From NCBI RefSeq assembly GCF_005048855.1, contig NZ_SUME01000004.1, positions 62,001 through 126,000 on the forward strand: a stretch of DNA of 64,000 nucleotides, in the 5' to 3' direction. Numbering within the stretch: position 1 is the first letter of the stretch; every line of letters starts with the position of its first letter. The translations under genes and the position numbers were made by a program. This stretch comes from Sphingobacterium olei. GTDB lineage: Bacteria > Bacteroidota > Bacteroidia > Sphingobacteriales > Sphingobacteriaceae. The notes below the pieces were generated by a model. It had not been told where the DNA came from. It searched no databases and was given only the letters and a program-made list of their open reading frames with translations. Shown here piece after piece: positions 34,150 to 63,031 of this stretch.

Positions 34150-34265
34150 ATCCCATTGTTACTAACAAGAAGTTGTTATTTACGACTTTTGATTTATAAT
34201 ATAGCGATCTCTAATTGCGCGCTGTGAATATACGAAATTATGCTATCTTTTAGTAACTTTTAACT

Positions 34266-35753: not shown

Positions 35754-35928
35754 GCGTATGTTGTTAGTTTGTATCGGCACGTTGGTTTTAATTTTACGAA
35801 TCTACAGTGAAATCCTTTTACATGAAGTAGCTTATTCTTTTTCGAATTAGTATTAGGTGTCGTTTATAAAAATTAGCCAATTTAATACTCAAATTTCCCA
35901 AATGTCTTCCGGAATAAAATATCTCTCT

Positions 35929-35957
35929 GTATCAATAAAATGTGAAATCGTCTCAAT
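35929..35957 (-). promoter_or_regulatory. Direct-repeat operator 1 (sulfatase)
   Basis: Read toward the sulfatase, the site is ATTGAGAC-N13-ATTGATAC, with half-sites 21 bp apart. The gap to the -7-like GAAATTTG (35890-35897) is 31 nt. Confidence 0.65.
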
Positions 35958-46500: not shown

Positions 46501-46702
46501 CTTCCTCGTCGGTACGTGCACCTAACCCAGGCGCATTGCTGATCGATATACTCACCCCCATAAGAGGATCGTTATTTGTATCGGTGACCTTACCCGTGAT
46601 CGTCACCTCTTCCTGTACCACTTGCTCTGTTCCCTGTTGGGCATGGGCATGCTGTCCCATGGCCAGCACAGCAAAGCCGATACATAGTATGTATTTTTTC
46701 AT
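43577..46702 (-). CDS. SusC/RagA TonB-dependent transporter (locus 2)
   Basis: The 1041-residue transporter has a signal peptide (ending AHAQ), a carboxypeptidase-D-like domain (about 33-110; TITGKVTDTNNDPLMGVSISI), and the plug with VVVTATGNERRIAVTGAI and WIRGISTFG. Next is VLKDASATAIYGSRGANGVV, the SusC signature, and then the barrel. Unlike the locus-1 SusC it has no STN domain, consistent with control by a two-component system instead of sigma/anti-sigma. It follows the NHL-repeat lipoprotein by 28 bases. Confidence 0.96.
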   Translation of the reverse strand: MKKYILCIGFAVLAMGQHAHAQQGTEQVVQEEVTITGKVTDTNNDPLMGVSISISNAPGLGARTDEEGRYSLKVRRYQTLVFTYVGYDKVEVLLTAQPTIDVTMNESGSSIIDQVVVTATGNERRIAVTGAITTVDVERLKSNPSTSMADALAGQVPGILAMQRSGRPGEISEFWIRGISTFGASSAALILVDGFERDMNEINVEDVESFTVLKDASATAIYGSRGANGVVLINTKRGKEGKIAINAKLEGFRSQFTKLPSFADGYTYASMANEAKTTRNQESLYSNVELEILRLGLDPDLLPNVDWMDVLLRDNTFSNRSQLSMSGGGKTARYYVGGSYHNMQGMYKVDDALGDYNTNTNFRRYTYRLNVDMDVTPTTLLRVGVSGSLRKENDPGVGTNAIWTSLMGYNPVMMPLTYTDGRVASWTGNNDNLNPWIQGTMTGYRENWDNNIQTNLNLEQKLDFITKGLRFIGRFGYDTKNWSSINRIKKPETWRIDRFRNQGELIFTRNNEEQKMTQSSSSDGSRRDFFEWDLLYNKNLGKHNFGAVAKYMQSSEVFTQGIGSDLKRGIARRIQGVSGRVNYNFNSRYFVDFNFGYTGSENFHRDNRYGFFPAFSGAWNVAEEAFLKDSDWVDMFKIRYSHGRTGNDRMGPSNNPIRFPYLYDIETMVDGDGNPTGGYLFGSTQLPLGSEPWRSGMRYSSVASPHVTWEVATKKNLGFDFSFLGDKFSGVFDLFDEQRDGIYMQRNFLPNMVGLESNPQANVGSVKSRGFDGNIDYKQKFNAVDLTLRGNMTYSKNEILARDEQNSIYGYRLQQGHRVDQARGLVALGLFKDYDDIRNSPTQQFGEVMPGDIKYKDINGDGIVDATDVTAIGATTRPNLIYGFGMSISWKGIDLNVLFQGAGKSSYFINGSSVYMFQGGDGWGNVLTELANSNRWILGVNEDPNADYPRLSYGANSNNYRASTFWLRDGSYMRLKNLDIGYSLPKHWVNRAHINTARVFFVGTNLLTFSKFKLWDPEMGNPDGKVYGLSQTLSLGLQVNL

Positions 46703-46730: not shown

Positions 46731-48131
46731 CTATTCTCCTTCCAGCGCAATTTTTCGGATAATCCAATTGCCTGTATCACCGACATAAAAACAGTTCCGG
46801 GCCTCATCATGAGCAATGGCGCAGGGACCTTTAAAGCGCGCCTCCAGGCGTAGATCCCCGTTAGAATACCCACTTGTACCGTTGTTGCCTCTGCCTGCAT
46901 AAGTTTTTACCCGGCCCAAAGGTGTCAACGTACGAATACAGTGGTTGTCCCGATCACAGAAGTAATAATCATATTGATCTCCTCCCTGCTCTTCATAATC
47001 CGGATTCTTGACAAAGACACCCTGCATCGGACGATTAAGGCGCCCATTCGTGCCTACACCATCCACCCAACCCGAGGTACTTGCCGCACCAGCAACCGGA
47101 TAGGGCGCTTTAAAGATCTTTCTGTCATAATCGTAATCGCTCTTTAGGATATAATGCCGTTCCGAATTGGTAATATATGCATAATCACCGCTCGGGTGTA
47201 TAACTATATAAATGGCAAGTGCGGAAAAGGGGTTTTGAAAAGCCAACTGATCAGCTCCAGTCGTTAGATCATGACGGCGTACCTCTCCTGCGCGAAATAG
47301 CGAATAATACATTTCCCCATTAACCGGATGGACGGCAGCCCCATTCACACCACGTGCCACACGGTTTATCACCTGACTTGAAGCAAAATTGGAGGACCTG
47401 GAATAGACATGAAATGCATTGCGGGTGTCTGAGGAATGGTTCTCTGCTGTGATCAGGTCTTGATCCCCATCCGGCTTCCAAAGGATAACAGACTTTCTCC
47501 CCACCCCTGGTGTCCGAAAATAAGACACATACCTTTGTTCCAGATCCACTATCCGCGCAGCAGCATTTTCAGCGGCGAAATACATGCGATTGGGGTTCTT
47601 TGGATCGAAAGTAAACCAGTTCATTTCCTTGAACGCACCACAGTCACCAAATGGCCCTTCCTTCTCTTCAAACATCGAACCAACCTCGTAATATGTTCCT
47701 ACCAGATCGCTCACAATCCATTTTGGTATATAAACAAATATTTCCCGCGCCTCTGCATGTGCGAGTTCTTCTTCTCGCTGCTCATCTAGTACATATACTT
47801 TAATATCACCTTCTGTAGCCAACGAAGGTACAATACAATATAAGGAAGTGCCTTTGACACTGATCACCTTGGCTATTTTGCCACCGATGACAACCTTAAT
47901 CCTGGATACATCATTGCCAAAATTATCCCCATAGATCACCATATTACTTCCGGATCCTCCCTCTTTCGGAAGAAAGTCTGTGACAGAAACTGGTTTCGAA
48001 GGGTCAAATAAACCCGCAGGTTGTTCGTCAGTGCTACTCTCCTTACACTGTATAAAGAAAAGCGTTATCAGTGCCAACAGTATCCCCTGAATGGGCCAGC
48101 ACGTTATTTTAAGTTTGTTTTTCATTTCCAT
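46731..48131 (-). CDS. IPT/TIG and NHL-repeat surface lipoprotein
   Basis: The 466-residue lipoprotein (LFFIQC near residue 29) has an IPT/TIG Ig-like domain (about 50-135; VSVTDFLPKEGGSGSNMVIYGDNFG ... VVIGGKIA). A beta-propeller follows, with repeats such as NRMYFAAENAA, GEMYYSLFRAGEVRRHDL, YAYITNSER, YYFCDRDNHCIRTL and CFYVGDTGNWIIRKI. Proteins of this make-up commonly accompany SusC/SusD and bind glycan at the surface. It is the first gene of the NHL-susC-susD-DUF4973 operon and has a leader of over 400 nt. Confidence 0.85.
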   Translation of the reverse strand: MEMKNKLKITCWPIQGILLALITLFFIQCKESSTDEQPAGLFDPSKPVSVTDFLPKEGGSGSNMVIYGDNFGNDVSRIKVVIGGKIAKVISVKGTSLYCIVPSLATEGDIKVYVLDEQREEELAHAEAREIFVYIPKWIVSDLVGTYYEVGSMFEEKEGPFGDCGAFKEMNWFTFDPKNPNRMYFAAENAAARIVDLEQRYVSYFRTPGVGRKSVILWKPDGDQDLITAENHSSDTRNAFHVYSRSSNFASSQVINRVARGVNGAAVHPVNGEMYYSLFRAGEVRRHDLTTGADQLAFQNPFSALAIYIVIHPSGDYAYITNSERHYILKSDYDYDRKIFKAPYPVAGAASTSGWVDGVGTNGRLNRPMQGVFVKNPDYEEQGGDQYDYYFCDRDNHCIRTLTPLGRVKTYAGRGNNGTSGYSNGDLRLEARFKGPCAIAHDEARNCFYVGDTGNWIIRKIALEGE

Positions 48132-48612
48132 TTACATTTATTGTTATCCAATTGGATTTGGTTAATTTAGTCTTATTAGCGCATCTCAATAGCCAAGGTG
48201 GGTGGTTGATTTTGTCGATAATTTGCATAGGCATGTTGGTTTAAATTCTAATTTAGTTTGTAAATAATTGTTCTCGGCCAGTCATAGCGTATGAATCCTG
48301 TCCATTTTCAATAGGGCATGGAATAGCTAGGGCGATTGCTCTTTCGCCTTTAAAATGACAACGATTGATTGGCTAAGATGTATTCTTAATCGCTTTGCGC
48401 TTTGATGAGAAAGATATTCTCCATCATGAAATTTTTTAGTCCATTACGATCTACTTATTTTTAGTTGTTTATTATTGATTAATCCAAAAAAGGTTCAAAA
48501 GCAAAACGTATTTCTTTTTCGAATTACGCTGGGCTTGCTGCTTATAATTTAGTTGTTACACAATTCAATATTCAAATTTCCAGAATGTTTAATAGAAAAA
48601 AATATCTGTCTC
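48132..48612 (-). other. Long 5' leader of the SusCD operon of locus 2
   Basis: From the -7-like GAAATTTG (minus strand, 48573-48580) to the ATG the leader is about 430 nt with no open frame of note. A small hairpin (ggcga/tcgcc at 48331-48348) is visible. Two blocks, TAATTCGAAAAAGAA and AAACCAACATGCC, are shared with the sulfatase leader. I recognise no known riboswitch. Confidence 0.4.
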
Positions 48613-48641
48613 GATCAATAAATTGCTAAATCGTCTCAATG
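48613..48641 (-). promoter_or_regulatory. Direct-repeat operator 3 (NHL-susC-susD operon)
   Basis: Read toward the operon, the site is ATTGAGAC-N13-ATTGATCG with 21-bp spacing. The gap to GAAATTTG (48573-48580) is 32 nt. Confidence 0.65.
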
Positions 48642-49000: not shown

Positions 49001-50104
49001 TTACTCTCCTAAAAGAGCGGCTGCACACCACAGATAGGGTGCCTGTCCGTGAAGATCTCCGGCATTGCGCGGACGATTGTTATAGTGTTGTTTGTCGTTC
49101 TTTTTTCCGGTTCCGATACAAACCTCAGTTACGTTATTACGTTGATCGATGTAAGGAATCATCGCTAACCATGCCTTACGTGCGGCCGGAGCATATTCTG
49201 CAGCATCCAGCCAGCCCTCCTGCACACCGACGATAAAAGCGTAGGTGAACATGGCCGTTCCAGATGTTTCTGCCCAAAAAGTAGGCTCATCAATCAACTG
49301 ATTCCACATCCCACTGGGCTGCTGATAGTTTTTTAAACTTTTCATCATCTTCAGATAACCTTCCATTATACGTGGCCGGTCTTTGTGGTCGTCAGGCATC
49401 ATGCGCAACAGATTCGGCATGCCTACAGCCATCCAGCCGTCGCCACGTGCCCAATAATAATGCACGTCAGGCGCATGATAGAATAATCCGTTAGGACGCT
49501 GCAACTCGTCTAGGTACATTACCATTTCCTTGGCTGCGCGATCAAGATATTTTTTGTCACCTGTCACTTTATAGGCTTCGCCTTGAACCACGGTAATCAT
49601 GTACATGTCATCAATCCATAAACGCGTCTGCCAGGAATATCCTTTGTCTGCCCAGGATTTTTGTTCAGGTTTGGCGTTAGCGGGCAGTGTCCACTGTGTA
49701 TCGGCGTATTCCAGCCCCATTTTTTTATATCGCTCGTCTTTCGTAATCTGGTAGAGTTTCAACGCGAGGCTCCCAAACATGTTGTAATCTACATGATTCA
49801 TAGGAGGTAGCAGTGCTTTTTCGGTCGTAAAAAGAGGTTCGAATTTGTCCTGCAAGTGCTTGATGAGCTTTTTGTCGTTGACTTCCAGGGCGTAGTCCAA
49901 CGCGCCGTTCCAAGTGCACACTTCAGCGTAATGGATCGATCTATCGTAAAGTTCATGTTTTCCATTTATAAAGTGATAGGCCAATTGCTTGCCAATCTCT
50001 TTAGGAGTTGATCCTTTAGGAAATCGTGTCAATGGGTTTGGTTGTGCCGATAAAAGCTGAAAAGAACATATTGTTAACAACAATAAGGAGATTTTTTTTA
50101 ACAT
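49001..50104 (-). CDS. GH105-like unsaturated rhamnogalacturonyl hydrolase
   Basis: The 367-residue product has a signal peptide (ending LLSAQ) and an (alpha/alpha)6-barrel with the family features: TWNGALDYALEV, RLWIDDMYMITVVQGEAYKVTGD with the catalytic Asp, YWARGDGWMAVGMPNLLRMMPDDH, and SGMWNQLIDEPTFWAETSGTAMFTYAFIVGVQEGWLD. GH105/GH88 enzymes remove the 4,5-unsaturated uronic acid left by pectin or glycan lyases. No lyase is in this window. An operator lies 155 bp upstream. Confidence 0.9.
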   Translation of the reverse strand: MLKKISLLLLTICSFQLLSAQPNPLTRFPKGSTPKEIGKQLAYHFINGKHELYDRSIHYAEVCTWNGALDYALEVNDKKLIKHLQDKFEPLFTTEKALLPPMNHVDYNMFGSLALKLYQITKDERYKKMGLEYADTQWTLPANAKPEQKSWADKGYSWQTRLWIDDMYMITVVQGEAYKVTGDKKYLDRAAKEMVMYLDELQRPNGLFYHAPDVHYYWARGDGWMAVGMPNLLRMMPDDHKDRPRIMEGYLKMMKSLKNYQQPSGMWNQLIDEPTFWAETSGTAMFTYAFIVGVQEGWLDAAEYAPAARKAWLAMIPYIDQRNNVTEVCIGTGKKNDKQHYNNRPRNAGDLHGQAPYLWCAAALLGE

Positions 50105-50259
50105 AGGGTTTATATTTATTCAGTGATGACGGATTACTTTACAGATTCGTTGTGTAAGGCTTGTGTTAATAATATAAGTAATGTATGTTTATAATGGCTC
50201 CTCAACGGAAACTTAGTTGACAAAGTTTGTGAATATTTGCCGATAGAAAGTGCTTGATT

Positions 50260-50288
50260 GTATCAATAAATTGTTTTTTTGTCTCAAT
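50260..50288 (-). promoter_or_regulatory. Direct-repeat operator 4 (GH105)
   Basis: Read toward GH105, the site is ATTGAGAC-N13-ATTGATAC, the best match to the consensus, with 21-bp spacing. The gap to the -7-like AAACTTTG (50221-50228) is 31 nt. Confidence 0.65.
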
Positions 50289-50393: not shown

Positions 50394-53300
50394 CTATGAA
50401 TTATTTTCGATGTTTAACGGAATCTCTAAAACAAATACATTTAGATTTTCTTTATTTTTATCGTAATGTAGAGAACCACGGTGTATTTCGGCAAAGGAAT
50501 AGGCGAGGGCTAATCCCAGACCGGATCCTTTGATCCTATAGTGGGATGACGCGCGCTGAAAAGGTTTAAAGATTTGCTGTACTTCTTCTTCAGTTAGCAA
50601 TACCCCATCATTTTTGACTTGAATGATAAAAGTGTCCCGTGCTGAATTTTTATGCAGGCCTATGAGAACTTTATGTTCGGCATATTTGATCGCATTCGAT
50701 AGCAAATTCGATAGGATTTTATAGATAGTCTCAACGTCGATATACGCTTCAAGTTCTTCGTCCATATCCACATCTAAACTCAACTTTTTACTCTCTAACA
50801 AGGGAGCGAATTCCTGCAGCGTAATATGTATTAAGTCACTGATCTTTTGTGTTTGCAGTTGTAGTGAAAACTCGCTACTTTCTATCTTACGGAAGTCCAG
50901 TAAATTGTCTGTCAACGTAAGGAGTTTTTCTGTGTTTTGCTGGATGCTATGTAACCACTTTTCTGTTTTCGTAGCGTCAGCACCCAGAAGTATTTTCTCT
51001 AACGGAGCTTTTATGAGGGTTAACGGTGTTTTGATATCATGTGTGATACGCATGAAAAAATCCATTTTTGCCTTGTACAATTCCTGTTCTTTATGGTTCT
51101 TGATCACTTCAAGGCGTCGTCTGTTCTTTTCCTTAATACGCTGGTCGTAGATCGACAAAGCATAGTACAAGAAGAGGAAGGTTAGAATGGCATAGACAAT
51201 AAAGGCGGGGGTACTTGCCCAAAAAGGCGGCTTTATAGTGATATGCAATTGTTTTTGTTCAGAGATAGGCGTACCATTGGCATCGGTAGCCATCACCTCA
51301 AATCGGTATTTACCGGGAGGGATCTTTGTAAAGTTTGCTTTCCCATTTGTGCGTAAAAATGTCCAAGAGGTATCTAGTCCGACCAATCTGTAACGGTACG
51401 AAGTCGATTTAGCTGACACAAAGTTTAAGGCTGCAAAATCAATGCTTATCGTTGATTCATCATGATTTAATGTAATTTGATTTGTATAGATAACTGATTG
51501 ACTTAGATTGCCATTGTGTCCACCAATTGTTAGTTCCCGTTGATGGGTTTGAATACCAGTAATAAATACTGGAGCGCGTAGGTCGGTGTTGAAATGCTCT
51601 GTCATTCGTTCGGGATCGAAGCGAACTAATCCTTTCGACGAACCAAAATAGAGGAAACCTCGACTGTCTTTAAAGACCGAATTGTAATTGAACTGTAGTC
51701 CCAAAAGCCCCAATTCAGTGTCAAATAAATCGATCTTTCGGGTGTGGATATTCATTTTAACGAGTCCGCGGGAGGTGCTAATCCACAGGTTTTTATGTGC
51801 ATCCTCTTCGAATCCGAGAATCAAATTACTTGGAAGTCCATCATGTTTAGTGATTCGATGGAAATTATTTGTTTTCTCCTGCCACACCGCCATTCCGCTT
51901 TCTGTGGCAATCCAGATATTGCCTTCGGAATCCTGAAATACTTTATTCGCGCGGTTGCTGTTAAGCGATTGACTATCTTCTTCCTCGTGTTTATAGCGAA
52001 CGACTTCTCCCGTTGCTGGCGACAATTTTATCAGGCCGTCTCTCCAGGTGGTAAACCAAAGACACCCTTGTTTATCTTCATAAATAGAGGTATACCAAAT
52101 ATGACGTTCCAAATGCCTTAATGTTTGGAACCGATCTTCTCCCGGGAAAAATTCATAGGCTCCACGGGAAGTTGCTACTAGAATTCTGCCTGCCCGTGTT
52201 CGATATATAGAGAAGACAAAATTATCACCAAGTCTGCCTTGTGTATTCTTGTTGTCGAAATGTCTGATCACCTTCTTCGTGCGGACATTTACGACATCCA
52301 TGCCCTGATGAAAGGTTCCGACTAAGAGGCTGTCGCCAGCAATCGCCAACCCATGAATGTTACTGTGTGCGAGATTTGCATCTTGTCCCAGTGTAAGGAA
52401 ACTATTGTCATGTTGATTCCACATGGTGAGACCATGGTCTTCTGTCCCTATCCAAATATTTTGATAGCGATCTTCTATAATTTCCCGTATGGCATGGCCT
52501 TGAATGGAATTGGAGGTCGATCTGGGGAATATTTTTTCAAAGTAGGTATGTTGCGGATGATAGTATTGGATGCCTCCAAAATAAGTGCCCACCCACATGC
52601 CGCCCTGATGATCTCGGCGGACTGTATAGATTGCATTGTCGGTAAGACTCCATGGGTTATCTTTTTCATGGCGTAAGATGTGGTACTGATCCGTTAATGT
52701 GTTGTAGATTATTAAACCTGCCTCAGATCCAATCCAAAGTGATGTGTCGTTAAATTGTGCTATATCACGGATGTACAGGGGGCTAAAAGGGAATGGAGAG
52801 CGGATAAGGTGCTTAATCGTGTGCTTTTCGGAGTCATATTTAAATAGTCCTTCTTTAGAGGTTCCCATCCAAATGTTGTTTTTTTTGTCTACAAATAGCT
52901 CTTTGATTTCGGTAGTTGTTGTAGAAATAAGGGGCAGGGTGTATGTATATTGCGTATTTAATGAAATGAGTTTTTTTTCCGCTCCGATCCACACTTCCTG
53001 GTTATTATCAAATGTGAAACTCGAAACCACGTATTGTTTGCGGTAGGTTTTTTGCACCAGTGTTTTTGTCGTAACCTCATAGCAAAAGAGTTCATTATTA
53101 GCAATGAACCAGATATTTCCAAAAGAATCTTCTTCAATTTTTACAATTTCCCTACTACGCACATCCGGTAAATCAGTGAATTGCTCGGTTCGCGGATCAA
53201 GTATATAGACCCCTTGGTCAGTTCCTATCCAAAGTTGATTATCCCGGCTAACGGTAATGCTATGAATAAAGTTACTGCCAAGTCCACCTCTGGTTTCCAT

Positions 53301-53537
53301 GTCGGCATAAAAATGTCTGAAATTGTACCCGTCAAACCGATTCAATCCGTCGCGTGTACCAAACCACATAAAGCCGTCTTTATCTTGTACACTGCATAGT
53401 ATGGCATTATTAGAGACACCATCTTCGACCTGATAGTGGTTAAAATAATAAACCTGTGCGGAGGTTTGACAAATGGGAATAAATAGCAGTGTAATAATGA
53501 TTATAAAAAGCAGTGCTAAATATCGGTGAATTTTCAT
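50394..53537 (-). CDS. Sensor histidine kinase with periplasmic propeller (kinase half of a split hybrid two-component system)
   Basis: The 1047-residue product has a signal peptide (ending SAQ) and a large periplasmic double propeller of two-component-regulator repeats (about 30-690; repeated W-x-G-T and NLWISTSRGLVKM motifs). A Y_Y_Y domain follows (about 690-760), then one transmembrane helix (about 770-790), HisKA with His833 (MRITHDIKTPL), and HATPase with N-box LSNAIKYAE (near 945) and GSGLGLALAYS (near 1004). It then stops at a TAG. The receiver and AraC domains that usually complete this architecture are missing here but occur as a separate protein at 60031-60810. The likely ligand is an arabino-oligosaccharide. 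Confidence 0.93.
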   Translation of the reverse strand: MKIHRYLALLFIIIITLLFIPICQTSAQVYYFNHYQVEDGVSNNAILCSVQDKDGFMWFGTRDGLNRFDGYNFRHFYADMETRGGLGSNFIHSITVSRDNQLWIGTDQGVYILDPRTEQFTDLPDVRSREIVKIEEDSFGNIWFIANNELFCYEVTTKTLVQKTYRKQYVVSSFTFDNNQEVWIGAEKKLISLNTQYTYTLPLISTTTTEIKELFVDKKNNIWMGTSKEGLFKYDSEKHTIKHLIRSPFPFSPLYIRDIAQFNDTSLWIGSEAGLIIYNTLTDQYHILRHEKDNPWSLTDNAIYTVRRDHQGGMWVGTYFGGIQYYHPQHTYFEKIFPRSTSNSIQGHAIREIIEDRYQNIWIGTEDHGLTMWNQHDNSFLTLGQDANLAHSNIHGLAIAGDSLLVGTFHQGMDVVNVRTKKVIRHFDNKNTQGRLGDNFVFSIYRTRAGRILVATSRGAYEFFPGEDRFQTLRHLERHIWYTSIYEDKQGCLWFTTWRDGLIKLSPATGEVVRYKHEEEDSQSLNSNRANKVFQDSEGNIWIATESGMAVWQEKTNNFHRITKHDGLPSNLILGFEEDAHKNLWISTSRGLVKMNIHTRKIDLFDTELGLLGLQFNYNSVFKDSRGFLYFGSSKGLVRFDPERMTEHFNTDLRAPVFITGIQTHQRELTIGGHNGNLSQSVIYTNQITLNHDESTISIDFAALNFVSAKSTSYRYRLVGLDTSWTFLRTNGKANFTKIPPGKYRFEVMATDANGTPISEQKQLHITIKPPFWASTPAFIVYAILTFLFLYYALSIYDQRIKEKNRRRLEVIKNHKEQELYKAKMDFFMRITHDIKTPLTLIKAPLEKILLGADATKTEKWLHSIQQNTEKLLTLTDNLLDFRKIESSEFSLQLQTQKISDLIHITLQEFAPLLESKKLSLDVDMDEELEAYIDVETIYKILSNLLSNAIKYAEHKVLIGLHKNSARDTFIIQVKNDGVLLTEEEVQQIFKPFQRASSHYRIKGSGLGLALAYSFAEIHRGSLHYDKNKENLNVFVLEIPLNIENNS

Positions 53538-53796
53538 GGATGATACAATTTGAGTTATTTTTGAATTAAAATGACAATTTTTTGCAAGGTGTATTTTTCA
53601 ACTTTGCTCTCACTGATCGACAATTCAGCGTGATAGTATATTCTTTCGAATGAATATCACAATTGTGGTTCATAATTCGTATCCGATTACAATTATAAGC
53701 AAAAGATAGAATAAACAAAATGATCTTTCACATTTACAATTTGCCAAAAGTCGCATGTACTGCATGCAACGGGTATATAACAAACAATAAAAGATA

Positions 53797-54891
53797 ATGA
53801 TGGCAAATAGATATATATATAGCATTTTTGTGATTAGCCTAATAGGATTTATCTCTGTATTGCTGTCTTTTCAGATTCTGGATCAAAAAGGAGAAGGAAT
53901 AGCATTGGATACTGCTGGTACTTCGCTTTACACCAATCCGGTATTCGAACCAATTTTAGCAGATCCAACAGTTATTAGAGATGAAAGCACAGGTTTTTTC
54001 TATGCCTATGGAACCGAAGATAATTGGGGGGATGGAAAAGGAAACCGTTTGATGCCAATCCTGCGGTCTAAAGACCTGGTTACTTGGAGCTATGCCGGCA
54101 ACGTATTTAATAAAAAACCGACATGGAAAGATCAAGGTGGATTATGGGCGCCGGATATTAATAAGATCAACGGCAAATACTATTTATATTACTCCTATTC
54201 GCTATGGGGAGATCGTGATCCTGGTATTGGCCTGGCAATAGCGGATAAGGCGGAGGGACCTTTTGAAGACAAAGGAAAGCTATTTACAAGTCATGAAGTC
54301 GACGTGCCAAATTCAATTGATCCATCATTGTATGAAGAGGATGGGCAGCGCTTTCTTTTCTGGGGAAGTTTTGGAAATGGACCATCCCAGGGGATTCATG
54401 GTATTCCGTTGTCTGTAGATGGAACAAGTGTGCCGGACTTGAAAAAGAAATTTAAGGTTGCAGCTGGCGATTGGGAAGCAGCAATGATTCATAAGCGGGA
54501 TGGGTATTATTACTTCTTTGGATCTAAGGGAAGCTGCTGTGATGGAGCCAATAGTCAATATCATGTATTGGTTGCCAGAGCTACATCCCTCAAAGGGCCA
54601 TATCTCGATAAATCTGGTAAAAATATTAATAGACGTGGTGCGGGAACAGTTTTATTGAAAGGTAATGATTGGATGGTAGGACCGGGGCATCACAGCAAAA
54701 TAATTAAAGATGACAATGGCTCCAATTGGTTATTATATCATGCGATTCAGAAGGATAAGGCTAAAGTAACCGGTGGAGCTAGTAGACGTGTATTGATGTT
54801 GGATAAAGTATCATGGGAAGACGGTTGGCCGGTTATCGGACAAGGATTTCCGACAATGAAATCGGATATTAAGCCTGTGTTTAAAAATTAA
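53797..54891 (+). CDS. GH43 endo-alpha-1,5-L-arabinanase-like enzyme
   Basis: The 364-residue exported enzyme has an N-terminal hydrophobic anchor or signal (about 5-27). Catalytic residues are Asp in LADPTVIRDE, Asp in NSIDPSLYEEDG, and Glu in DWEAAMI. LWAPDINKINGKYYLYYSYS and SKGSCCDGANSQYHVLVARATSLKGPY plus VGPGHH are endo-arabinanase features. It is divergent from the sensor kinase and separated by 259 bp in which I find no direct-repeat operator. A structured gap links it to the next GH43. Confidence 0.9.
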   Translation: MMANRYIYSIFVISLIGFISVLLSFQILDQKGEGIALDTAGTSLYTNPVFEPILADPTVIRDESTGFFYAYGTEDNWGDGKGNRLMPILRSKDLVTWSYAGNVFNKKPTWKDQGGLWAPDINKINGKYYLYYSYSLWGDRDPGIGLAIADKAEGPFEDKGKLFTSHEVDVPNSIDPSLYEEDGQRFLFWGSFGNGPSQGIHGIPLSVDGTSVPDLKKKFKVAAGDWEAAMIHKRDGYYYFFGSKGSCCDGANSQYHVLVARATSLKGPYLDKSGKNINRRGAGTVLLKGNDWMVGPGHHSKIIKDDNGSNWLLYHAIQKDKAKVTGGASRRVLMLDKVSWEDGWPVIGQGFPTMKSDIKPVFKN

Positions 54892-55006
54892 TGAATGATG
54901 AAACCGAGATGTAAATAATACAGATAAACAATAATGATTATCTTCGATGAGCTCGCAAGCTCGGTTATTTACATCGCGCGCTCATCAGCCACTGAAAAAA
55001 ATAAAA
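54892..55006 (+). ncRNA. Structured GH43-GH43 intergenic element (type B)
   Basis: The fold is GATGA (54896-54900) with TCATC (54982-54986), then an 11-bp perfect stem of gatgtaaataa (near 54907-54917) with ttatttacatc (54965-54975), and an inner gagctcgcaagctc hairpin. The blocks GATGAAACCGAGA, AATGATTAT, GAGCTC and CTCATCAGCCA match the susC-susD gap at 28584-28678 in the same order, although the pairing arms differ in sequence. Confidence 0.5.
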
Positions 55007-56086
55007 ATGATGAAAAAGAGTATTTTAATGTTGTTGATATGCAGCTTATGTTGCATTTCCACTGGTTTTGCACAATCCAATAATCCGTTAGAAGTGGCTT
55101 TTGGTGACCCATTTATCGTGTATGACGAAACCTCCGATCGCTATTATATGTATGGCACCGGAGGTGTAGAAAATGGATTTATGGCTTATGCTTCCGACGA
55201 TTTGAAAAACTGGGAAAGTCAGGGTGCGGTGTACACTTCAAAACAAGATAAAGCGTGGGGCACAAAGGACTTTTGGGCTCCCGAGGTGTATAAACGGGAC
55301 GGTAAGTTCTATATGTTCTACAGTGCACATTGGAAAGAAAACCCGACGAACGAGCTGGAAAACTACCGGATCGGTATAGCCGTATCGGATAGTCCTATCG
55401 GTCCGTTCATAGATATGACGGGAGCTCCCTTATTTGATCCGGGATATCCGATTATAGATGGCAATGTTTATTTTGGGGAAGACGGTAAACTATATCTGTA
55501 TTACTCGAGATGCTGCTATAAACATCCTGTACAATCTGAAATCGCGGATTGGGCTAAAAAAGAGGGCTTGTATCAGGAAATTGAGGAAAGTTGGATTTAC
55601 GGAGTGGAGCTCGCTGCCGATTTCTCTGCTGTTATTGGTGAGCCGAAATTGCTACTGCGTCCTCCCGTATCTTTAGCGGATAAGCAATCTGAATGGGAAA
55701 GTCGTTCGGTGACTTCACGCGAAGTAAATAGAAGATGGACAGAAGGTTCTTATCTTTTTAAAAAAAATGATGTATATTACATGATGTATTCGGCAAATCA
55801 TTTTGGAGGCGAGAACTACGCTGTGGGTTATGCAACTGCGTCACATCCGCTAGGGCCTTTTGAGAAGTCTGCAAGTAATCCAATTTTGGAAAAAAATACA
55901 GATGAGGGGGGTGTCGTGTCGGGCACGGGACATAATAGTATACTAAAAGACCGTGATGGAAAAATATGGTGCGTATACCATGCTCGAACAAAAGAAACTG
56001 GTAATGAAAGACTGGTTTTTTTAGATGCATTGGAAGTGTTGCCCGACGGTAAGCTAGTCGTACACGGACCAACAGTTAAACCTTAA
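55007..56086 (+). CDS. GH43 glycosidase, exo-acting type
   Basis: The ATG at 55007 (another follows at 55010) begins a signal peptide (SILMLLICSLCCISTGFAQ); an in-frame ATG at 54947 lies in the structured gap and would spoil the signal. The 359-residue enzyme has base Asp in AFGDPFIVYDE, DFWAPEVYKRDGKFYMFYS, pKa Asp in IIDGNVYFGEDGKLYLYYS and acid Glu in WTEGSYLFKK. YAVGYATASHPLGPF and GTGHNS are also present. Specificity is probably alpha-L-arabinofuranosidase or beta-xylosidase. It is followed by a Gfo/Idh/MocA gene after 71 bases. Confidence 0.88.
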   Translation: MMKKSILMLLICSLCCISTGFAQSNNPLEVAFGDPFIVYDETSDRYYMYGTGGVENGFMAYASDDLKNWESQGAVYTSKQDKAWGTKDFWAPEVYKRDGKFYMFYSAHWKENPTNELENYRIGIAVSDSPIGPFIDMTGAPLFDPGYPIIDGNVYFGEDGKLYLYYSRCCYKHPVQSEIADWAKKEGLYQEIEESWIYGVELAADFSAVIGEPKLLLRPPVSLADKQSEWESRSVTSREVNRRWTEGSYLFKKNDVYYMMYSANHFGGENYAVGYATASHPLGPFEKSASNPILEKNTDEGGVVSGTGHNSILKDRDGKIWCVYHARTKETGNERLVFLDALEVLPDGKLVVHGPTVKP

Positions 56087-56119
56087 ATTAAAGCCGCATA
56101 CTATTTGTTTAACACAATC

Positions 56120-56140
56120 TCTCGTTGTAGCATCGAGAGG
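56120..56140 (+). other. Small hairpin before the Gfo/Idh/MocA gene
   Basis: The arms ctctcg (56120-56125) and cgagag (56135-56140) are complementary, 17 nt upstream of the ATG at 56158. It may influence ribosome access or mark a processing site. Confidence 0.3.
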
Positions 56141-56157
56141 ATAAATTTTATTAAAAA

Positions 56158-57441
56158 ATGAATAGAAAAGATTTTTTAAAGGCTTCTGCTATTTTTGCGG
56201 CTTCCAGTATGTATTCGGGCGTAAATGCTTTCACGTTACAAGATGGAAAAATTAGAGTAGGCGCTATTGGGGTGAACGGTATGGGCTGGTCTAACTTGAA
56301 CGCTTTGTTGAAGGATGATAGGGTAGTATGTACTGCTTTATGCGATGTGGATGAGAATGTTCTCCAGAAGCGAAGCGACGAACTCGCACAGCGAGGTATA
56401 ACCGTAAAACGGTATGTCGATTACAGGGAGTTGTTACGAGACAACGTGGTAGACGCCATTATTATCGCGACTCCCGACCATTGGCACACATTACAGATGG
56501 TAGATGCGGTAAATGCAGGAAAACATGTATACGTAGAGAAACCTATCGGTAATTCGATTAAAGAATGCGAAGTAATGGTAGCTGCTGCACAGCGTAACAA
56601 GAGCATCGTGCAGGTTGGACAATGGCAACGCAGCCAGAAACATTTTCGGGATGCAATCGATTTTGTACATTCTGGGAAGCTCGGCAAAATACGACAGGTG
56701 AAAGCATGGTCATATGTAGGCTGGAAGAAAACTATTTCAAACAAACCTGATGCACCTATTCCTGCAGGGGTACATTACGATAAATGGCTAGGACCTGCAC
56801 AGAGTAGACCATTTAACCCAAATCGGTTCCATTTTGAATTTAGGTGGTTTTGGGATTACGCCGGTGGATTGATGACGGACTGGGGAGTACATATGCTCGA
56901 TTATGCGCTTTTAGGGATGAAAGTGTCAGATCCGATCTCCATCATGGCTTCTGGAGGTAAGTTTGCGGATCCTAATGGTGCAGCAGAAACCCCGGATACG
57001 TTGACTGCAGTGTATCAATTTGATGATTTTAACATACAATGGGAACATGCGCTCGGATTGGATTTGGGGCCGTATAACCGCACGCATGGGGTCGCATTTA
57101 TTGGGAATAATGGTACCTTGGTCTTGGATCGAGGAGGATGGGAGGTCATTTCGGAAAAAGATAAGGGGATTACCATACCGTTACAGAAATCATCAGATAA
57201 TGGGTTAGAAAAGCACATGGTTAACTTTGTGGATGCCATCATTAAAAAAGATGCCAGCACGCTAAATGCACCGATCGAAGCTGGAGCACATATCGCGACT
57301 TTTTCACAAATGGGAAATATTGCATATCGAACTGGGAAAAAATTATTTTGGGATAAGAAATATAGAAAATTTACCGATCGTGAAGCCAATACGTATTTGG
57401 TGTCCGAGTATCATAATGGGTATAAATTACCAAAGACATAA
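56158..57441 (+). CDS. Gfo/Idh/MocA-family oxidoreductase, exported
   Basis: The 427-residue protein starts with NRKDFLKASAIFAASSMYSGVNA, a Tat-like export signal common for this family in Bacteroidota. The Rossmann motif is VGAIGVNGMGWSNL (about 34-47), followed by the E-K-P motif in HVYVEKPIGNS. The C-terminal domain has WFWDYAGGLMTDWGVHMLDYAL with the catalytic Asp-x3-His. Exported members can act on sugars such as 3-keto-glycosides or remove modified hexosamines. The substrate here is unknown. The neighbouring GH43 and DUF4965 genes suggest a glycan role. Confidence 0.88.
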   Translation: MNRKDFLKASAIFAASSMYSGVNAFTLQDGKIRVGAIGVNGMGWSNLNALLKDDRVVCTALCDVDENVLQKRSDELAQRGITVKRYVDYRELLRDNVVDAIIIATPDHWHTLQMVDAVNAGKHVYVEKPIGNSIKECEVMVAAAQRNKSIVQVGQWQRSQKHFRDAIDFVHSGKLGKIRQVKAWSYVGWKKTISNKPDAPIPAGVHYDKWLGPAQSRPFNPNRFHFEFRWFWDYAGGLMTDWGVHMLDYALLGMKVSDPISIMASGGKFADPNGAAETPDTLTAVYQFDDFNIQWEHALGLDLGPYNRTHGVAFIGNNGTLVLDRGGWEVISEKDKGITIPLQKSSDNGLEKHMVNFVDAIIKKDASTLNAPIEAGAHIATFSQMGNIAYRTGKKLFWDKKYRKFTDREANTYLVSEYHNGYKLPKT

Positions 57442-57457
57442 AAATCTCTTCGATGAG

Positions 57458-57477
57458 GCTTTCTTTTTAAAGAAGGC
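57458..57477 (+). terminator. Possible weak terminator after the Gfo/Idh/MocA gene
   Basis: The arms gctttcttt and aaagaaggc pair at 8 of 9 positions, 16 bases after the stop. A -7 box for the next gene follows. Confidence 0.35.
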
Positions 57478-57500
57478 TTTACCGAAGAAATTTTCCAAAG

Positions 57501-57508
57501 TATTTTTG
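57501..57508 (+). promoter_or_regulatory. -7 promoter box of the DUF4965 gene
   Basis: TATTTTTG matches TAnnTTTG, 24 nt upstream of the ATG at 57533. It supports that start over the long in-frame extension into the previous gene. Confidence 0.4.
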
Positions 57509-57532
57509 TTCACTAACCAACAACTTTTTATA

Positions 57533-60013
57533 ATGATAAAGAAATCCAAAATTATCTTCGCGGTAGTGGGAGTACTTTTGTCGAACTGTAACGCTCAAAA
57601 GGAGGAAACTCACTTGGAGAATAGCTTAAGAGCTCCAGCTTATCCGCTAGTTACCATTGATCCAAATACCAGCGCTTGGTCGTATGCCGATAACCTATAT
57701 GACGAATCTATTAAACATTGGACGGGAAAAAATTTTCCGTTGCTAGGGGTTATTAAAGTAGACGGACAGTTATACCGGTTTATGGGGAAAGAGGAGGTAG
57801 AATTGTTGCCATTGTCACCGACGGGGGACAATTTAGCGTGGGATGCGCGTTATGTCACCTCTACCCCGGGGGCAAATTGGAATAAATTAGATTTTGACGA
57901 CAAGGGATGGCGTTCGGGAAAGGCACCTTTCGGAACAAAAATTAACGAACCCAGAACGGTTACAAATTGGGAAGACGAAAAGATATGGGTTCGCAGGGAA
58001 ATCATATTAAACGAAGACCTGACAGATAACGATGTTTATCTGGAGTTTACACATGATGATGATGCTATATTATATGTAAATGGAATGGAAGTGGTAAATA
58101 CCGGAAATAAGACGGGCAAGAATACCAAAATCAAATTATCAGATGAAGTCGTTAAAACACTAAAGAAAGGTAAAAATTTACTCGCAGGATATTGTCATAA
58201 TAGGGTAGCGAATGGCTTTTTTGATTTTGGATTGTCCAAAGAGAAGGAAGGACAAACGTTTTTTGCCAATACAGCAAAGCAGACGTCAGCAGATGTACAG
58301 GCTACACAAACGCATTACACATTTGCCTGTGGACCGGTCGATTTAAAAGTAACTTTTACTGCTCCTATGTTCTTGGACGATTTGGAATTAATGTCACGCC
58401 CCGTTAACTACCTTACTTACGAAATTAAAGCAAGTGATAACGCAGAACATCAGGTAGAAGTCTATTTTGAAGCCTCACCCAATTGGGCGCTGGATTCTCC
58501 GTTGCAAGAATCAACGACAGAAGCTTTTGAAGACAATAACTTGGTTTTTTTAAAGACCGGCAGCAAAAATCAGGATGTATTAGGGAAGAAAGGCGATGAT
58601 TTGCGGATTGATTGGGGCTATTTTTATATGGTGGCTGATAAGCAGAATACGACCTATCAGATTGGTGAAAGCAGTGTAATTCGTTCATCTTTCATTAAGA
58701 ATTCCGAAGCCGATGTGAAAAATGGGGAGGGTAAAAATCAGTTGTCGCTAACAAAAAAAATTACACTTAAAAATACGCATACCGATAAGATTATGTTGGG
58801 ATATGATGATGTTTTCTCTATCCAGTATTTTGGGGAAAATCTTAGACCTTATTGGAACGCAGGCGGTAAATCTTCTATTGTGGAAGCTTTTCATAAATCA
58901 TATACACAGTACAAAGATATCAAGGCAAAAAGTACGGCTTTTGATCATAAACTGATGTCAGACTTTACTAAAGAAGGTGGTAAAGATTACGCAGAATTAT
59001 GTGCTTTGGCGTATCGACAAGCTATTGCAGCACATAAACTGGTTAAAGCTCCCAATGGCGATTTATTATTGTTGTCAAAGGAAAATGATAGTAACGGTTC
59101 TATCGGGACAGTGGATGTTACTTATCCTTCTGCACCATTATTTTTGTACTATAACCCTGAATTGGCAAAAGCACTTTTAAATTTTATCTTCTATTACAGT
59201 GAAAGTGGTAAATGGACGAAGCCCTTTGCAGCACATGACATTGGTACTTACCCGCTTGCAAATGGACAGACTTACGGCGGCGATATGCCAGTCGAAGAAT
59301 CTGGAAATATGTTAATCTTGACAAACGCTATTGCCGAGATGGAAGGAGACGCAAAATATGCGGAAAAACATTGGTCTGTATTGACCACATGGGTCGATTA
59401 CCTCGTCGAGAATGGCTTGGATCCAGATAATCAACTATGTACAGACGATTTTGCTGGTCATTTTGCCCATAATGCAAACCTTTCAATCAAAGCTATTTTA
59501 GGTATTGCTTCGTACGGTAACTTAGCAAAGATGCTTGGGAAAGATGATGTTGCCAGTAAATATACAAATATTGCAAAAGGGATGGCCAAAGAATGGAAGC
59601 AAATGGCCAAAGATGGGGATCATTACAAGCTTACCTTTGATAAGCCGGACACGTGGAGCCAAAAATATAATTTGGTATGGGATAAAATATTCGATATGGG
59701 AATTTTCGATGCGGATATCGCACAGGACGAAATCGCGTATTATCTGACCAAACAGAATGTATATGGACTTCCACTTGACAGCCGTGAAGCCTATACGAAA
59801 TCAGATTGGATATTTTGGACGGCGACATTAGCCCCTGATTTGTCAACTTTTCAGAAATTTATCTCTCCAGTGCATCAGTTTATGCATAATACAACAGATA
59901 GAGTGCCAATGTCGGATTGGATTTATACAGATAAACCAGAAAGAAGAGGCTTTAAAGCTCGGTCTGTAGTAGGTGGATATTTCATTAAGATGTTAGCAGG
60001 AAAAGTTAAATAA
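57533..60013 (+). CDS. DUF4965/DUF5127 (glutaminase A-like) secreted protein with jelly-roll insert
   Basis: The 826-residue lipoprotein (VLLSNC near residue 18) opens with a DUF4964-like strand (LRAPAYPLVTIDPNTSAWS). A carbohydrate-binding-like jelly roll follows (about 95-235; DDKGWRSGKAPFG, DAILYVNGMEVVNTG, KKGKNLLAGYCHN). The DUF5127 (about 240-480) and DUF4965/DUF1793 helical domains complete it, with EESGNMLILTNAIAEMEGDAKYAEKH, DDFAGHFAHNANLSIKAILGI and LYTKSDWIFWTATL-like segments. The fungal relative GtaA is a glutaminase, but bacterial members in glycan loci are probably glycosidases of unknown specificity. The C-terminus lies in a terminator palindrome. Confidence 0.85.
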   Translation: MIKKSKIIFAVVGVLLSNCNAQKEETHLENSLRAPAYPLVTIDPNTSAWSYADNLYDESIKHWTGKNFPLLGVIKVDGQLYRFMGKEEVELLPLSPTGDNLAWDARYVTSTPGANWNKLDFDDKGWRSGKAPFGTKINEPRTVTNWEDEKIWVRREIILNEDLTDNDVYLEFTHDDDAILYVNGMEVVNTGNKTGKNTKIKLSDEVVKTLKKGKNLLAGYCHNRVANGFFDFGLSKEKEGQTFFANTAKQTSADVQATQTHYTFACGPVDLKVTFTAPMFLDDLELMSRPVNYLTYEIKASDNAEHQVEVYFEASPNWALDSPLQESTTEAFEDNNLVFLKTGSKNQDVLGKKGDDLRIDWGYFYMVADKQNTTYQIGESSVIRSSFIKNSEADVKNGEGKNQLSLTKKITLKNTHTDKIMLGYDDVFSIQYFGENLRPYWNAGGKSSIVEAFHKSYTQYKDIKAKSTAFDHKLMSDFTKEGGKDYAELCALAYRQAIAAHKLVKAPNGDLLLLSKENDSNGSIGTVDVTYPSAPLFLYYNPELAKALLNFIFYYSESGKWTKPFAAHDIGTYPLANGQTYGGDMPVEESGNMLILTNAIAEMEGDAKYAEKHWSVLTTWVDYLVENGLDPDNQLCTDDFAGHFAHNANLSIKAILGIASYGNLAKMLGKDDVASKYTNIAKGMAKEWKQMAKDGDHYKLTFDKPDTWSQKYNLVWDKIFDMGIFDADIAQDEIAYYLTKQNVYGLPLDSREAYTKSDWIFWTATLAPDLSTFQKFISPVHQFMHNTTDRVPMSDWIYTDKPERRGFKARSVVGGYFIKMLAGKVK

Positions 60014-60043
60014 AAGGGGACATCCCCCTTTTATTTAACTTTT
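60001..60043. terminator. Bidirectional terminator overlapping two convergent stop codons
   Basis: The 19-bp arms (60001-60019 and 60025-60043) are perfectly complementary with a 5-nt loop and A/T-rich outer ends. The last codons and TAA stops of both the DUF4965 gene and the receiver-AraC gene lie inside the arms. Confidence 0.9.
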
Positions 60044-60810
60044 GAATCCGCATATTCTTTTGGAGATACGCCAAATTGTTTTTGAAAATTTCGGGTAAAA
60101 TGAGAAGAAGAATTGAACCCTACCGTAGTAGATATTTCATAGATTTTCAATTCACCTTCGATCAACAGGTCAGCTGCTTTTTTAAGTCGTGTGATGTTAA
60201 TAAGCTCATTGGGAGAAAGGTTCGAAATCCCTTTGATTTTTCGATATAATGTTGGTCGGCTCATATGCATATGATCAGCCAGCATATCAACACATAAGCC
60301 CTGTTCTGAAATGTTTTCAATAATGAGGGTGTTGAGTTTCTCGAGGAATGCTTGATCTGCTTTGTTCAGCGCGATACTGTTCAATGGTACTAAAGGTGAT
60401 TTGCTGTAATGTTCCCGAACATGCTGTCTATTGCGCAACAAACTGTCGATCTGCGCCTGTAGAAAAGAGGGAGAAAACGGCTTTTCGATATAAGCATCGG
60501 CACCGTATTTTAGACCTTCAATTTTAGATTGTAGATTGTTTTTCGCCGTGAGCATAATAAATGGAATATGACTATAGCTAAGATTCTCTTTTAGACGGGT
60601 GCATAATTCGTATCCATCGACGTAGGGCATCATAATATCGCTGACAATAAGGTCTACATGTTGTGTAACTATAAAGTCTAATACTTCTTGGCCATTATTG
60701 GCCTTGACCACATCGTAATGCTCTCCCAGATCGTCCGCAAGAAAATCTAAAATATCTTGGTGATCGTCTGCAACAAGTATAGTGAAACGTGTGGTAACGT
60801 TATTATGCAT
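60031..60810 (-). CDS. Response regulator, receiver-AraC (output half of a split hybrid two-component system)
   Basis: The 259-residue protein has a receiver domain (about 8-125) with acidic pocket DD (15-16), phospho-acceptor Asp58 (IVSDIMMP) and Lys110 (YIEKPF). An AraC-type double helix-turn-helix follows (about 155-255; CVDMLADHMHMSRPTLYRKIKGI and TTVGFNSSSHFTRNFQKQFGVSPKEYADS). This is exactly the module order at the C-terminus of hybrid two-component regulators. The nearby kinase at 50394-53537 lacks it. AraC-type domains bind direct repeats about 21 bp apart, matching the five sites described. It may also autoregulate from the shared region upstream. Confidence 0.93.
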   Translation of the reverse strand: MHNNVTTRFTILVADDHQDILDFLADDLGEHYDVVKANNGQEVLDFIVTQHVDLIVSDIMMPYVDGYELCTRLKENLSYSHIPFIMLTAKNNLQSKIEGLKYGADAYIEKPFSPSFLQAQIDSLLRNRQHVREHYSKSPLVPLNSIALNKADQAFLEKLNTLIIENISEQGLCVDMLADHMHMSRPTLYRKIKGISNLSPNELINITRLKKAADLLIEGELKIYEISTTVGFNSSSHFTRNFQKQFGVSPKEYADSKVK

Positions 60811-61180
60811 AGGGAGTACAGATTGGTGCTTTTTGTACGAATATATCGATTTTTTTTAAATAGTCATAATGTTTAAGCTACCCGTAGTAAAAAAAAGTTA
60901 GAAAAATGTTTAGAGAATCCGGGAGATAATTATAAAACTATTGACGAGACAATTTAATAATTTAATGAGACAAAATGTCAATGAGTTGATGTGAATATTT
61001 GATAAATTTAGAGATTCGTTGATTGAGTAGTAAACCACATTATAATTAGAAGTGATATTTACGATCGCTCGTTCAAGATGACAAGAAAAGAAATTATGTT
61101 TATTCGGATATTTAGCGAACCTGTGGGAATCAGGCCCTATATAGACAAAAGAAACTAAACTTAAATAACAATAAAAAAGT
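60811..61180. other. Divergent regulatory region, response regulator / GH2
   Basis: This 370-bp non-coding region contains the fifth direct-repeat operator. The remainder is AT-rich; I recognise no gene or other repeat. Confidence 0.5.
60943..60971 (+). promoter_or_regulatory. Direct-repeat operator 5 (GH2)
   Basis: The site reads GACGAGAC-N13-AATGAGAC with 21-bp spacing. The gap to the -7-like TAAATTTA (61003-61010) is 31 nt. A third half-site-like word, GTTGATGT, lies another 21 bp on (60985-60992). Confidence 0.5.
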
Positions 61181-63031
61181 ATGATGAAAAAAACTATTGC
61201 CGTTGCTGTTGTCATAGCAGCTACATTATCAGAAGGTTTTTCTCAGCAGTGGAAACCTGCAGGTGAAAAGATACTGACCTCTTGGGGAGAAAACCTGGAC
61301 GCTACAAAACCACATCAAGAGTATCCGCGTCCGCAGTTGATACGTAAGGATAACTGGCAAAATTTAAATGGCTTATGGAAGTATGCCATTACAACCAAAG
61401 ATCAAAAGGAAATACCGAACGAATGGGAAGGAAATATATTGGTACCTTTTGCGGTGGAGTCTGCGTTATCGGGGGTAGGAAAAGAGGTAGGAAAAGATAA
61501 GGCACTTTGGTATAATAATGAAATTAGTCTAGATCTCAAAGTCGATAAAAATAACGTGATCCTTCATTTTGGTGCTGTTGATTGGCAATGTGATTTATAT
61601 GTCAATGGTCAACTGGTTGGGCGTCACGAAGGTGGATTTGACCCTTTTTCATTTGATGTGACCTCATTTCTGAAGAAAGGTAAAAAGCAGAATATTGCCA
61701 TGCGCGTGTGGGATCCTACAAGCGAAGGCCCTCAGCCCCGCGGTAAGCAAATTAACAACCCGCATGGTATATGGTACACACCGGTAACGGGTATTTGGCA
61801 GACCGTATGGATAGAGTCAGTGCCTAAAACGTATATCGTAAGTACCAAACACACACCTGCTGTGGATGACAAAGCACTGCATTTCGAGGCGCAAGTAGAA
61901 GGTGCTCTGCAGGGTGATCAAATTGTGGTAGAAGCGTACGACGGGCCTACTAAAATCGCAGAAGGGAGCACTCCTACGGGTTCTGTTCTTAAACTTGCGG
62001 TACCGCAAGCTACATTGTGGTCACCAGATAATCCAAAGCTTTATGATTTACAGATCAAAGTCCTCCGCAAAGGTAAAGTAATCGACAGGGCGACAAGTTA
62101 TTTTGCCATGCGAAAAATCACGATGAAACCAGATGAGAAGGGAATTCAGCGTATGTATTTAAACGATAAGTTTGTGTTCCATTATGGACCTTTAGATCAG
62201 GGCTGGTGGCCAGATGGCTTGCATACAGCCCCTTCTGATGAAGCACTGAAATTTGATATCATCAAAACAAAGGAGATGGGCTTTAATATGATAAGGAAGC
62301 ACATCAAGGTAGAACCTGCGAACTGGTATCGCTATTGCGATAGCATCGGTATATTAGTATGGCAGGATATGCCAAGTGGCGACCTCGGAGGAAACGTATG
62401 GGATATGCAGCCCGGAAAGATATCTGGAGGTCTTCATGACAAGGTGCGTTCATCTGATTCTGAAGCAATATACCGTAAAGAGTGGAAAGCTATTATGGAT
62501 GTACTGCATAATTATCCAAGTATAGTGGTATGGGTGCCATTCAACGAAGCTTGGGGGCAGTTCAAAACTAAGGAAATTACCGAATGGACTATAAAACAAG
62601 ATCCTTCTCGTATCGTCAATAGTGCAAGTGGAGGTAACTTCGCCCACACTGGCCATATGCTCGATATTCATAATTATCCGGACGCCGCAATGCCTGATCC
62701 ACAGATATTTGGTAAAGATTATATATTGACTTTAGGAGAGTTTGGTGGATTAGGCCTGCCTATCGATGGACACAGCTGGCAGCAAAAAGATAACTGGGGA
62801 TACCAATCATTTAAAAATAAGGAAGAACTGAAAAAGAGATATGAAGAGCTTATAAATAATCTAGCAAAGCTTATTCCACTTGGACTATCTGGCGGTGTGT
62901 ATACACAAACAACGGATGTAGAGGTAGAAACAAACGGGTTGATGACGTATGACCGTAAAGTAATTAAAATTTCGGAATCAGATCTGAAAAATATACACCA
63001 AAAGTTGTATGATGCAAAGATAGGTAAGTAA
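61181..63031 (+). CDS. Secreted GH2-family glycosidase
   Basis: The 616-residue enzyme has a signal peptide (ending GFSQ), a sugar-binding jelly roll (about 45-210; NLNGLWKYAI, DLYVNGQLVGRHEGGFDPFSFDVT), an Ig-like domain and a TIM barrel. Acid/base Glu456 is in VPFNEAWG and nucleophile Glu520 in LTLGEFGG. The GH2 family covers beta-galactosidase, beta-glucuronidase, beta-mannosidase and arabinopyranosidase activities. In an arabinan/pectin setting beta-galactosidase or alpha-L-arabinopyranosidase is most likely, without proof. A second ATG follows the first immediately. Confidence 0.9.
   Translation: MMKKTIAVAVVIAATLSEGFSQQWKPAGEKILTSWGENLDATKPHQEYPRPQLIRKDNWQNLNGLWKYAITTKDQKEIPNEWEGNILVPFAVESALSGVGKEVGKDKALWYNNEISLDLKVDKNNVILHFGAVDWQCDLYVNGQLVGRHEGGFDPFSFDVTSFLKKGKKQNIAMRVWDPTSEGPQPRGKQINNPHGIWYTPVTGIWQTVWIESVPKTYIVSTKHTPAVDDKALHFEAQVEGALQGDQIVVEAYDGPTKIAEGSTPTGSVLKLAVPQATLWSPDNPKLYDLQIKVLRKGKVIDRATSYFAMRKITMKPDEKGIQRMYLNDKFVFHYGPLDQGWWPDGLHTAPSDEALKFDIIKTKEMGFNMIRKHIKVEPANWYRYCDSIGILVWQDMPSGDLGGNVWDMQPGKISGGLHDKVRSSDSEAIYRKEWKAIMDVLHNYPSIVVWVPFNEAWGQFKTKEITEWTIKQDPSRIVNSASGGNFAHTGHMLDIHNYPDAAMPDPQIFGKDYILTLGEFGGLGLPIDGHSWQQKDNWGYQSFKNKEELKKRYEELINNLAKLIPLGLSGGVYTQTTDVEVETNGLMTYDRKVIKISESDLKNIHQKLYDAKIGK

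Follow-up and report, generated by a model that had tools for sequence, protein, structure and literature searches.

What becomes of a regulator that is built as one chain when its kinase and its output module are encoded by separate genes? Hybrid two-component systems (HTCS) are regarded as single-chain regulators in which the tether stands in for docking specificity and requires an inhibitory clamp. In a 64,000-nucleotide stretch of the Sphingobacterium olei genome (contig NZ_SUME01000004.1, positions 62,001 to 126,000; hereafter the window), a sensor histidine kinase of the HTCS kind and a free response regulator with a receiver (REC) and an AraC-type domain lie 6.5 kb apart within a locus for carbohydrate degradation. 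We propose that the two form a cognate two-component pair that arose by fission of an HTCS and works by the mechanism outlined below, a reading to which we assign a probability of about 0.86. To judge from its sequence, the pair is an ordinary phosphorelay derived from an HTCS, and kinase and regulator appear to activate one and the same set of genes for carbohydrate degradation. That they work as a pair is argued from three observations: each is the only protein of its type in the genome, their docking residues co-vary across relatives, and genes at the locus share a common upstream motif.

Two genes with the domain content of one hybrid

The kinase gene (50394..53537, minus strand) encodes 1047 aa in which Pfam recognizes Reg_prop propellers followed by Y_Y_Y, HisKA and HATPase domains; a single transmembrane stretch can be read from the sequence at about residues 778-797, and the phospho-acceptor residue is H833. 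The HATPase_c match stops at residue 1042, five residues before the C-terminus, and Pfam detects no receiver domain in the protein. The regulator gene (60031..60810, minus strand), at a distance of 6,493 bp, encodes 259 aa comprising a REC domain, with D15, D16, D58, T88 and K110, and an AraC-type HTH_18 domain (Pfam). By sequence, the closest solved structure to the kinase is 4a2l, an HTCS-type sensor (E 3e-87), and the closest to the regulator is 12aw, an HTCS REC-AraC fragment (E 4e-52). In an AlphaFold model of the regulator the individual domains are good (mean predicted local distance difference test score 88, predicted template modelling score 0.61), and the matches listed by a fold search of the PDB were mostly isolated receiver domains.

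An initial annotation had described a hybrid split into separate kinase and receiver-AraC genes 6.5 kb apart, the kinase ending directly after its HATPase domain and the regulator supplying exactly the absent C-terminal modules. Coordinates, lengths and Pfam domains bear this out, and the positions given there for His833 and Asp58 are correct. Its remark that the two proteins together are as long as a normal hybrid also holds, since true hybrids of the same genome and genus span about 1245-1440 aa and the sum of the two is 1306 aa. A whole-genome search with the regulator as query found no receiver remnant between the kinase stop and the neighboring GH88 gene.

Distribution, gene order and descent

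Sixty relatives, 37 of them Sphingobacterium, were searched and scored for presence or absence at the thresholds used. A lone regulator is found in 29 of the 37 Sphingobacterium genomes, and 28 of those 29 have an intact lone kinase as well; the other eight have neither. Where both genes lie on one fetched fragment (50 pairs), the regulator directly follows the kinase in 40, with a gap of -52 to +24 bp and often with overlapping ends, lies upstream in nine and is on the opposite strand in one. The comparison of orthologous loci that the initial annotation had called for therefore finds the same two separate genes across the genus, mostly adjacent. Among 295 genomes sampled across the class, close REC-AraC matches sit nearly all within fused reading frames, which restricts the split form to this lineage. 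Two loci differ in detail: in one relative (G005) the split kinase gene (L132:9619-13560) falls into four reading frames and the regulator is intact, perhaps because the kinase has become a pseudogene or was wrongly sequenced (the assembly has 7% contamination), and in a Chitinophaga (L250:9986-13874) kinase and regulator stand tail to tail on opposite strands with a 38 bp overlap.

A regulator upstream of its kinase occurs in two clades, the window's clade included. There the distances are 2.5 kb in DW12, 4.1 kb in S. pedocola, 6.5 kb in the window and 20 kb in S. alkalisoli, with GH43a-GH43b(-Gfo-GtaA) as the intervening genes. In the second clade the regulator lies 30 bp to 2.4 kb away, and the same GH43 genes intervene in three members. 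S. alkalisoli retains both genes (88% and 86% amino acid identity) despite the insertion of a polysaccharide utilization locus (PUL) that has its own complete hybrid HTCS and lies between Gfo and GtaA (L282:11134-20000, L283:1-4650). On this comparison of genomes the split is old and lineage-wide, not a local event. Because the relatives mostly have adjacent pairs and upstream placement occurs in two clades, the genes were most likely split and adjacent already when a later rearrangement set them 6.5 kb apart.

In trees of both proteins the split forms are embedded among fused hybrids, and the outer branches are fused as well; fission of fused hybrids is therefore the likely direction of change. 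The two trees are broadly congruent. The regulator tree is compatible with one origin by fission (approximately unbiased (AU) test, p 0.45). The kinase tree requires five changes, three of them forced by starred branches, although a single clade is still not rejected (AU p 0.11), and it is possible in view of these changes that several fissions, or re-fusions, took place. Two fused hybrids close to split pairs, L284:5301-9284 (Pedobacter ginsengisoli) and L263:4062-7991 (G136), are candidate re-fusions.

Single candidates of each type and matched docking residues

The initial annotation had allowed that a nearer cognate kinase or regulator might lie outside the window, and the rest of the genome holds none of this type. 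The 5.4 Mb genome encodes one receiver-less HisKA kinase of the Reg_prop/Y_Y_Y type, that of the window, and one lone response regulator of the HTCS type, likewise in the window; all other close HTCS-type REC-AraC matches are parts of large fused proteins. The remaining Y_Y_Y proteins that have no AraC module are of LuxR/sigma type, a LytS-type kinase or a TonB receptor.

Docking was compared in 52 pairs at the kinase residue 15 positions after the phospho-acceptor histidine (H+15) and the receiver residue 11 positions after the second acid (D16) in helix alpha1 (+11), positions known for their role in specificity in HK853-RR468. Lysine or arginine at H+15 is paired with D, E, S or N at +11 in 48/48 cases, and a non-basic H+15 (W, L, L, Q) with V, V, F or I in 4/4. 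The coupling of a basic residue with D/E is significant by a statistic that ignores kinship (Fisher p 5.5e-5), and it is present in fused hybrids too, as a real contact predicts. The four swapped pairs fall in four lineages, so the joint change must have arisen several times: one comes from DW12, which belongs to the same clade as the window, has its genes 2.5 kb apart and pairs W with V, and the others come from G007, G029 and a Chitinophaga. In the window the docking pair is K848 and D27. None of seven own-genome hybrids checked (0/7) has a basic H+15, and the window regulator should therefore match them poorly. Two lone REC-AraC paralogues, L137:9511-10329 (G007) and L287:7707-8510 (G285), have no kinase on the DNA that was fetched and share V at the docking position with the regulator of a kinase (L136) that lies about 20 kb off in G007, a hint that one kinase may serve two regulators.

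Retention of the clamp

The S/CHIP-DK motif of HTCS keeps the DNA-binding domain on the receiver, which has been explained as the silencing of tethered, pre-dimerised DNA-binding domains (Gao, Wu and Stock, PMC11253607). The window regulator carries the full motif (S80 H81 I82 P83 D152 K191). All of 54 free regulators have HIP, 51 have K and 43 have D, and the first position is S or C in 30 and A in 17, chiefly in one clade; the corresponding counts for 52 fused sequences are S/C 40, D 46 and K 50. Overall, 26 of the 54 free regulators depart from strict S/CHIP-DK, mostly members of a single AHIP clade. None of the 54 varies at the phosphorylation residues, namely D58, the acids D15 and D16, T88 and K110. 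Since free regulators retain its residues, the clamp outlives the tether, though one clade may have loosened it somewhat.

Predicted binding sites

Alignment of intergenic regions from up to four species yielded one common element. The pattern GAKACRATTTRNNNATTTWWTGA (at most 3 mismatches) has 6 matches in the window against 0.43 expected, and all 6 fall between genes in a sequence of which about 90% is coding. A 44-bp position weight matrix (PWM), for which the training set was drawn solely from relatives that do not belong to the window's clade, finds five window sites at scores of 25-40, whereas the maximum over a null of 30 simulated windows is 21.4. Most are tandem half-sites forming a direct repeat with a 21-bp period (GAKACRATTT...). 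The predicted sites lie before the GH2 gene, beside the regulator (60946..60989, plus strand, score 40.2); between the kinase start and the GH43 operon (53542..53585, plus, 35.3); before the TIG-susC-susD operon (48594..48637, minus, 29.5); before the sulfatase gene (35911..35954, minus, 26.8); and before the GH88 gene (50242..50285, minus, 25.2). A weak match at 7751-7794 lies 67 bp before galT-galK-aldose epimerase; its PWM score of 12.2 is within the random range, and the galactose operon was rejected as a member of the regulon.

Loci with split pairs contain 40 pattern matches, 39 intergenic and one inside a gene, and two matches to the reversed pattern; loci with fused hybrids contain three and none, respectively. 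In S. alkalisoli sites flank the inserted PUL on both sides, and the pattern has no match within it. Across the rest of the window's genome (at most 2 mismatches), sites precede a SusC/SusD operon, a GH63-like enzyme gene and a second GH88 gene, and three further matches fall inside genes. Because these remote sites precede PUL-type genes and two of the remote matches exceed the random maximum (PWM scores 35.5 and 22.2), the free regulator is likely to act on distant loci.

Mechanism and alternatives

In the mechanism that we favor, the periplasmic propellers would sense a glycan fragment freed by the products of the locus, and the kinase dimer would autophosphorylate on H833. The freely diffusing REC-AraC protein, docked through helix 1 of the kinase dimerization and histidine phosphotransfer domain (K848) and REC alpha1 (D26/D27), would then receive the phosphate from H833 on its D58. 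Once phosphorylated, the receiver would release the DNA-binding domain that SHIP-DK holds against it, leaving the regulator to bind the 21-bp direct repeats at susCD, GH88, GH43, GH2, the sulfatase gene and a few remote PUL genes and presumably to activate rather than repress the PUL. Both regulator genes may themselves be controlled through the two divergent promoters.

Several observations weigh against this reading. Relative site rates at the docking positions show no significant difference between split and fused proteins (p 0.08-0.26). Moreover, kinase and regulator differ in their nearest species: by DNA identity the kinase is closer to S. alkalisoli (82.5%) than to S. pedocola (72.4%), and the regulator is closer to S. 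pedocola (88.8%) than to S. alkalisoli (78.4%), so that the two are not strictly co-inherited. The GH43b, Gfo and GH2 genes have S. alkalisoli as nearest species, as does the kinase, a pattern that suggests exchange of the regulator gene alone between species; recombination among close species has probably reassorted kinase and regulator at the tips. Finally, the regulator tree sets the Olivibacter regulator apart from the window regulator (AU p 0.051), and the sensor tree unites their kinases. The phylogenies proposed with the initial annotation thus agree in broad outline, with both proteins among fused hybrids, and disagree at the tips. Two stronger proposals were rejected: restored purifying selection at the docking sites after fission, for which raw entropies were striking but depth-normalised rates did not differ significantly, and a partner swap between deep lineages that combined an Olivibacter-type kinase with the regulator of another clade (AU p 0.051 for the regulator, 0.44 for the catalytic part of the kinase).

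It is also possible, though unlikely, that one or more other kinases serve the lone regulator, that the receiver-less kinase has a different regulator, and that the proximity of the two is incidental. The convergent enzyme genes that intervene and the discordant nearest species would fit such an arrangement, as would the orphan regulators of G007 (L137) and G285 (L287). Against it stand the absence of an alternative partner of the same type in the genome, direct adjacency in 40/50 pairs, and docking residues that agree within pairs and co-vary over 52 of them, where no own-genome hybrid among the seven has a basic H+15. A regulator partly independent of phosphorylation or of the kinase, for example a constitutive or repressing DNA-binding protein, is a somewhat poorer candidate. 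Deviant HTCS clamps accompany phosphorylation-independent binding (PMC11253607), and nearly half of the free regulators deviate; but the window regulator has a complete SHIP-DK and every phospho-site residue, the latter without exception among free regulators. Recent disruption or misassembly of a hybrid gene, which the hybrid-like summed length might suggest, can be set aside, just as the initial annotation had discounted a recent frameshift, because orthologues in dozens of species show the same two-gene form in differing gene orders, with intact starts and stops and no receiver remnant behind the kinase.

Relation to known systems

The two proteins resemble Bacteroides HTCS such as BT4663 and BT4124 (PMC11253607, PMC3878776) in domain set and order, SHIP-DK residues and PUL context. 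Direct repeats are reported for Bacteroides HTCS (PMC3878776), and their period of 20-21 bp is similar to that of the sites predicted here. Unlike in those systems, kinase and regulator are separate polypeptides, and the regulator is tethered to neither the membrane nor the kinase dimer; of the features that define an HTCS, the sensor, the REC-AraC module, the clamp and the predicted direct repeats are all found, and the single polypeptide is not. Separate genes and H+15/+11 co-variation are shared with classical pairs of the HK853-RR468 type, from which the window pair differs in its very large periplasmic propeller sensor, AraC-type output and fused-hybrid ancestry. Reg_prop/Y_Y_Y proteins of LuxR and LytS type in the same genome share the propeller-type sensor, but they have no HisKA kinase (LuxR/sigma) or a LytS-family His_kinase, and no AraC output.

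Two-component genes are known in general to fuse and to split. Among open-licence papers, none that describes an HTCS lineage in split form turned up in our searches. Such a lineage beside fused hybrids offers a natural experiment on the reason for fusion in HTCS: it allows one to ask whether clamp and docking residues matter in an untethered regulator and whether a free regulator serves distant operons, and the predicted site supplies a testable regulon. We tentatively suggest, at somewhat less than even odds, that untethering is a stable alternative HTCS design, hybrid-derived and with the clamp kept, in which a docking charge pair replaces the tether and remote PUL genes are reached in trans. 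If so, restraint of a tethered, pre-dimerised DNA-binding domain was not the sole reason why the clamp evolved, and the presence of fused and split systems in one cell would be a ready experiment on tether-based insulation.

Surrounding genes

The operon between the regulator genes is opened by a GH43 (glycoside hydrolase family 43) enzyme (53797..54891, plus strand; Pfam), whose closest solved structures are endo-arabinanases, followed by a second GH43 enzyme (54947..56086, plus; Pfam and structure-sequence search), a Gfo/Idh/MocA oxidoreductase (56158..57441, plus; Pfam) and a GtaA six-hairpin/DUF5127/DUF4964 protein (57266..60013, plus; Pfam). For the last, a start at 57533 is likelier, since the mechanical open reading frame from 57266 overlaps the oxidoreductase gene. 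The initial annotation, which listed three GH43/Gfo-type genes and a DUF4965 gene here, came close to this content. Divergent from the regulator gene is a GH2 enzyme (61181..63031, plus; Pfam). On the other side of the kinase lie a GH88-type hydrolase (49001..50104, minus; Pfam) and the susCD operon, made up of an IPT/TIG protein (46731..48131, minus; Pfam), a SusC-like TonB-dependent transporter (43577..46702, minus; assigned from its sequence) and a SusD-like lipoprotein (41474..43564, minus; domain search). The closest structures to the locus enzymes are arabinan- and galactofuranose-type enzymes, and these enzyme types hint that the substrate might be a plant polysaccharide with arabinose or galactose. 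The sulfatase with the predicted site upstream (34266..35780, minus) belongs to a cluster (32270-35780) with a FecR gene and an STN-type SusC/SusD pair, where extracytoplasmic function (ECF) sigma/anti-sigma control and the split regulator may meet.

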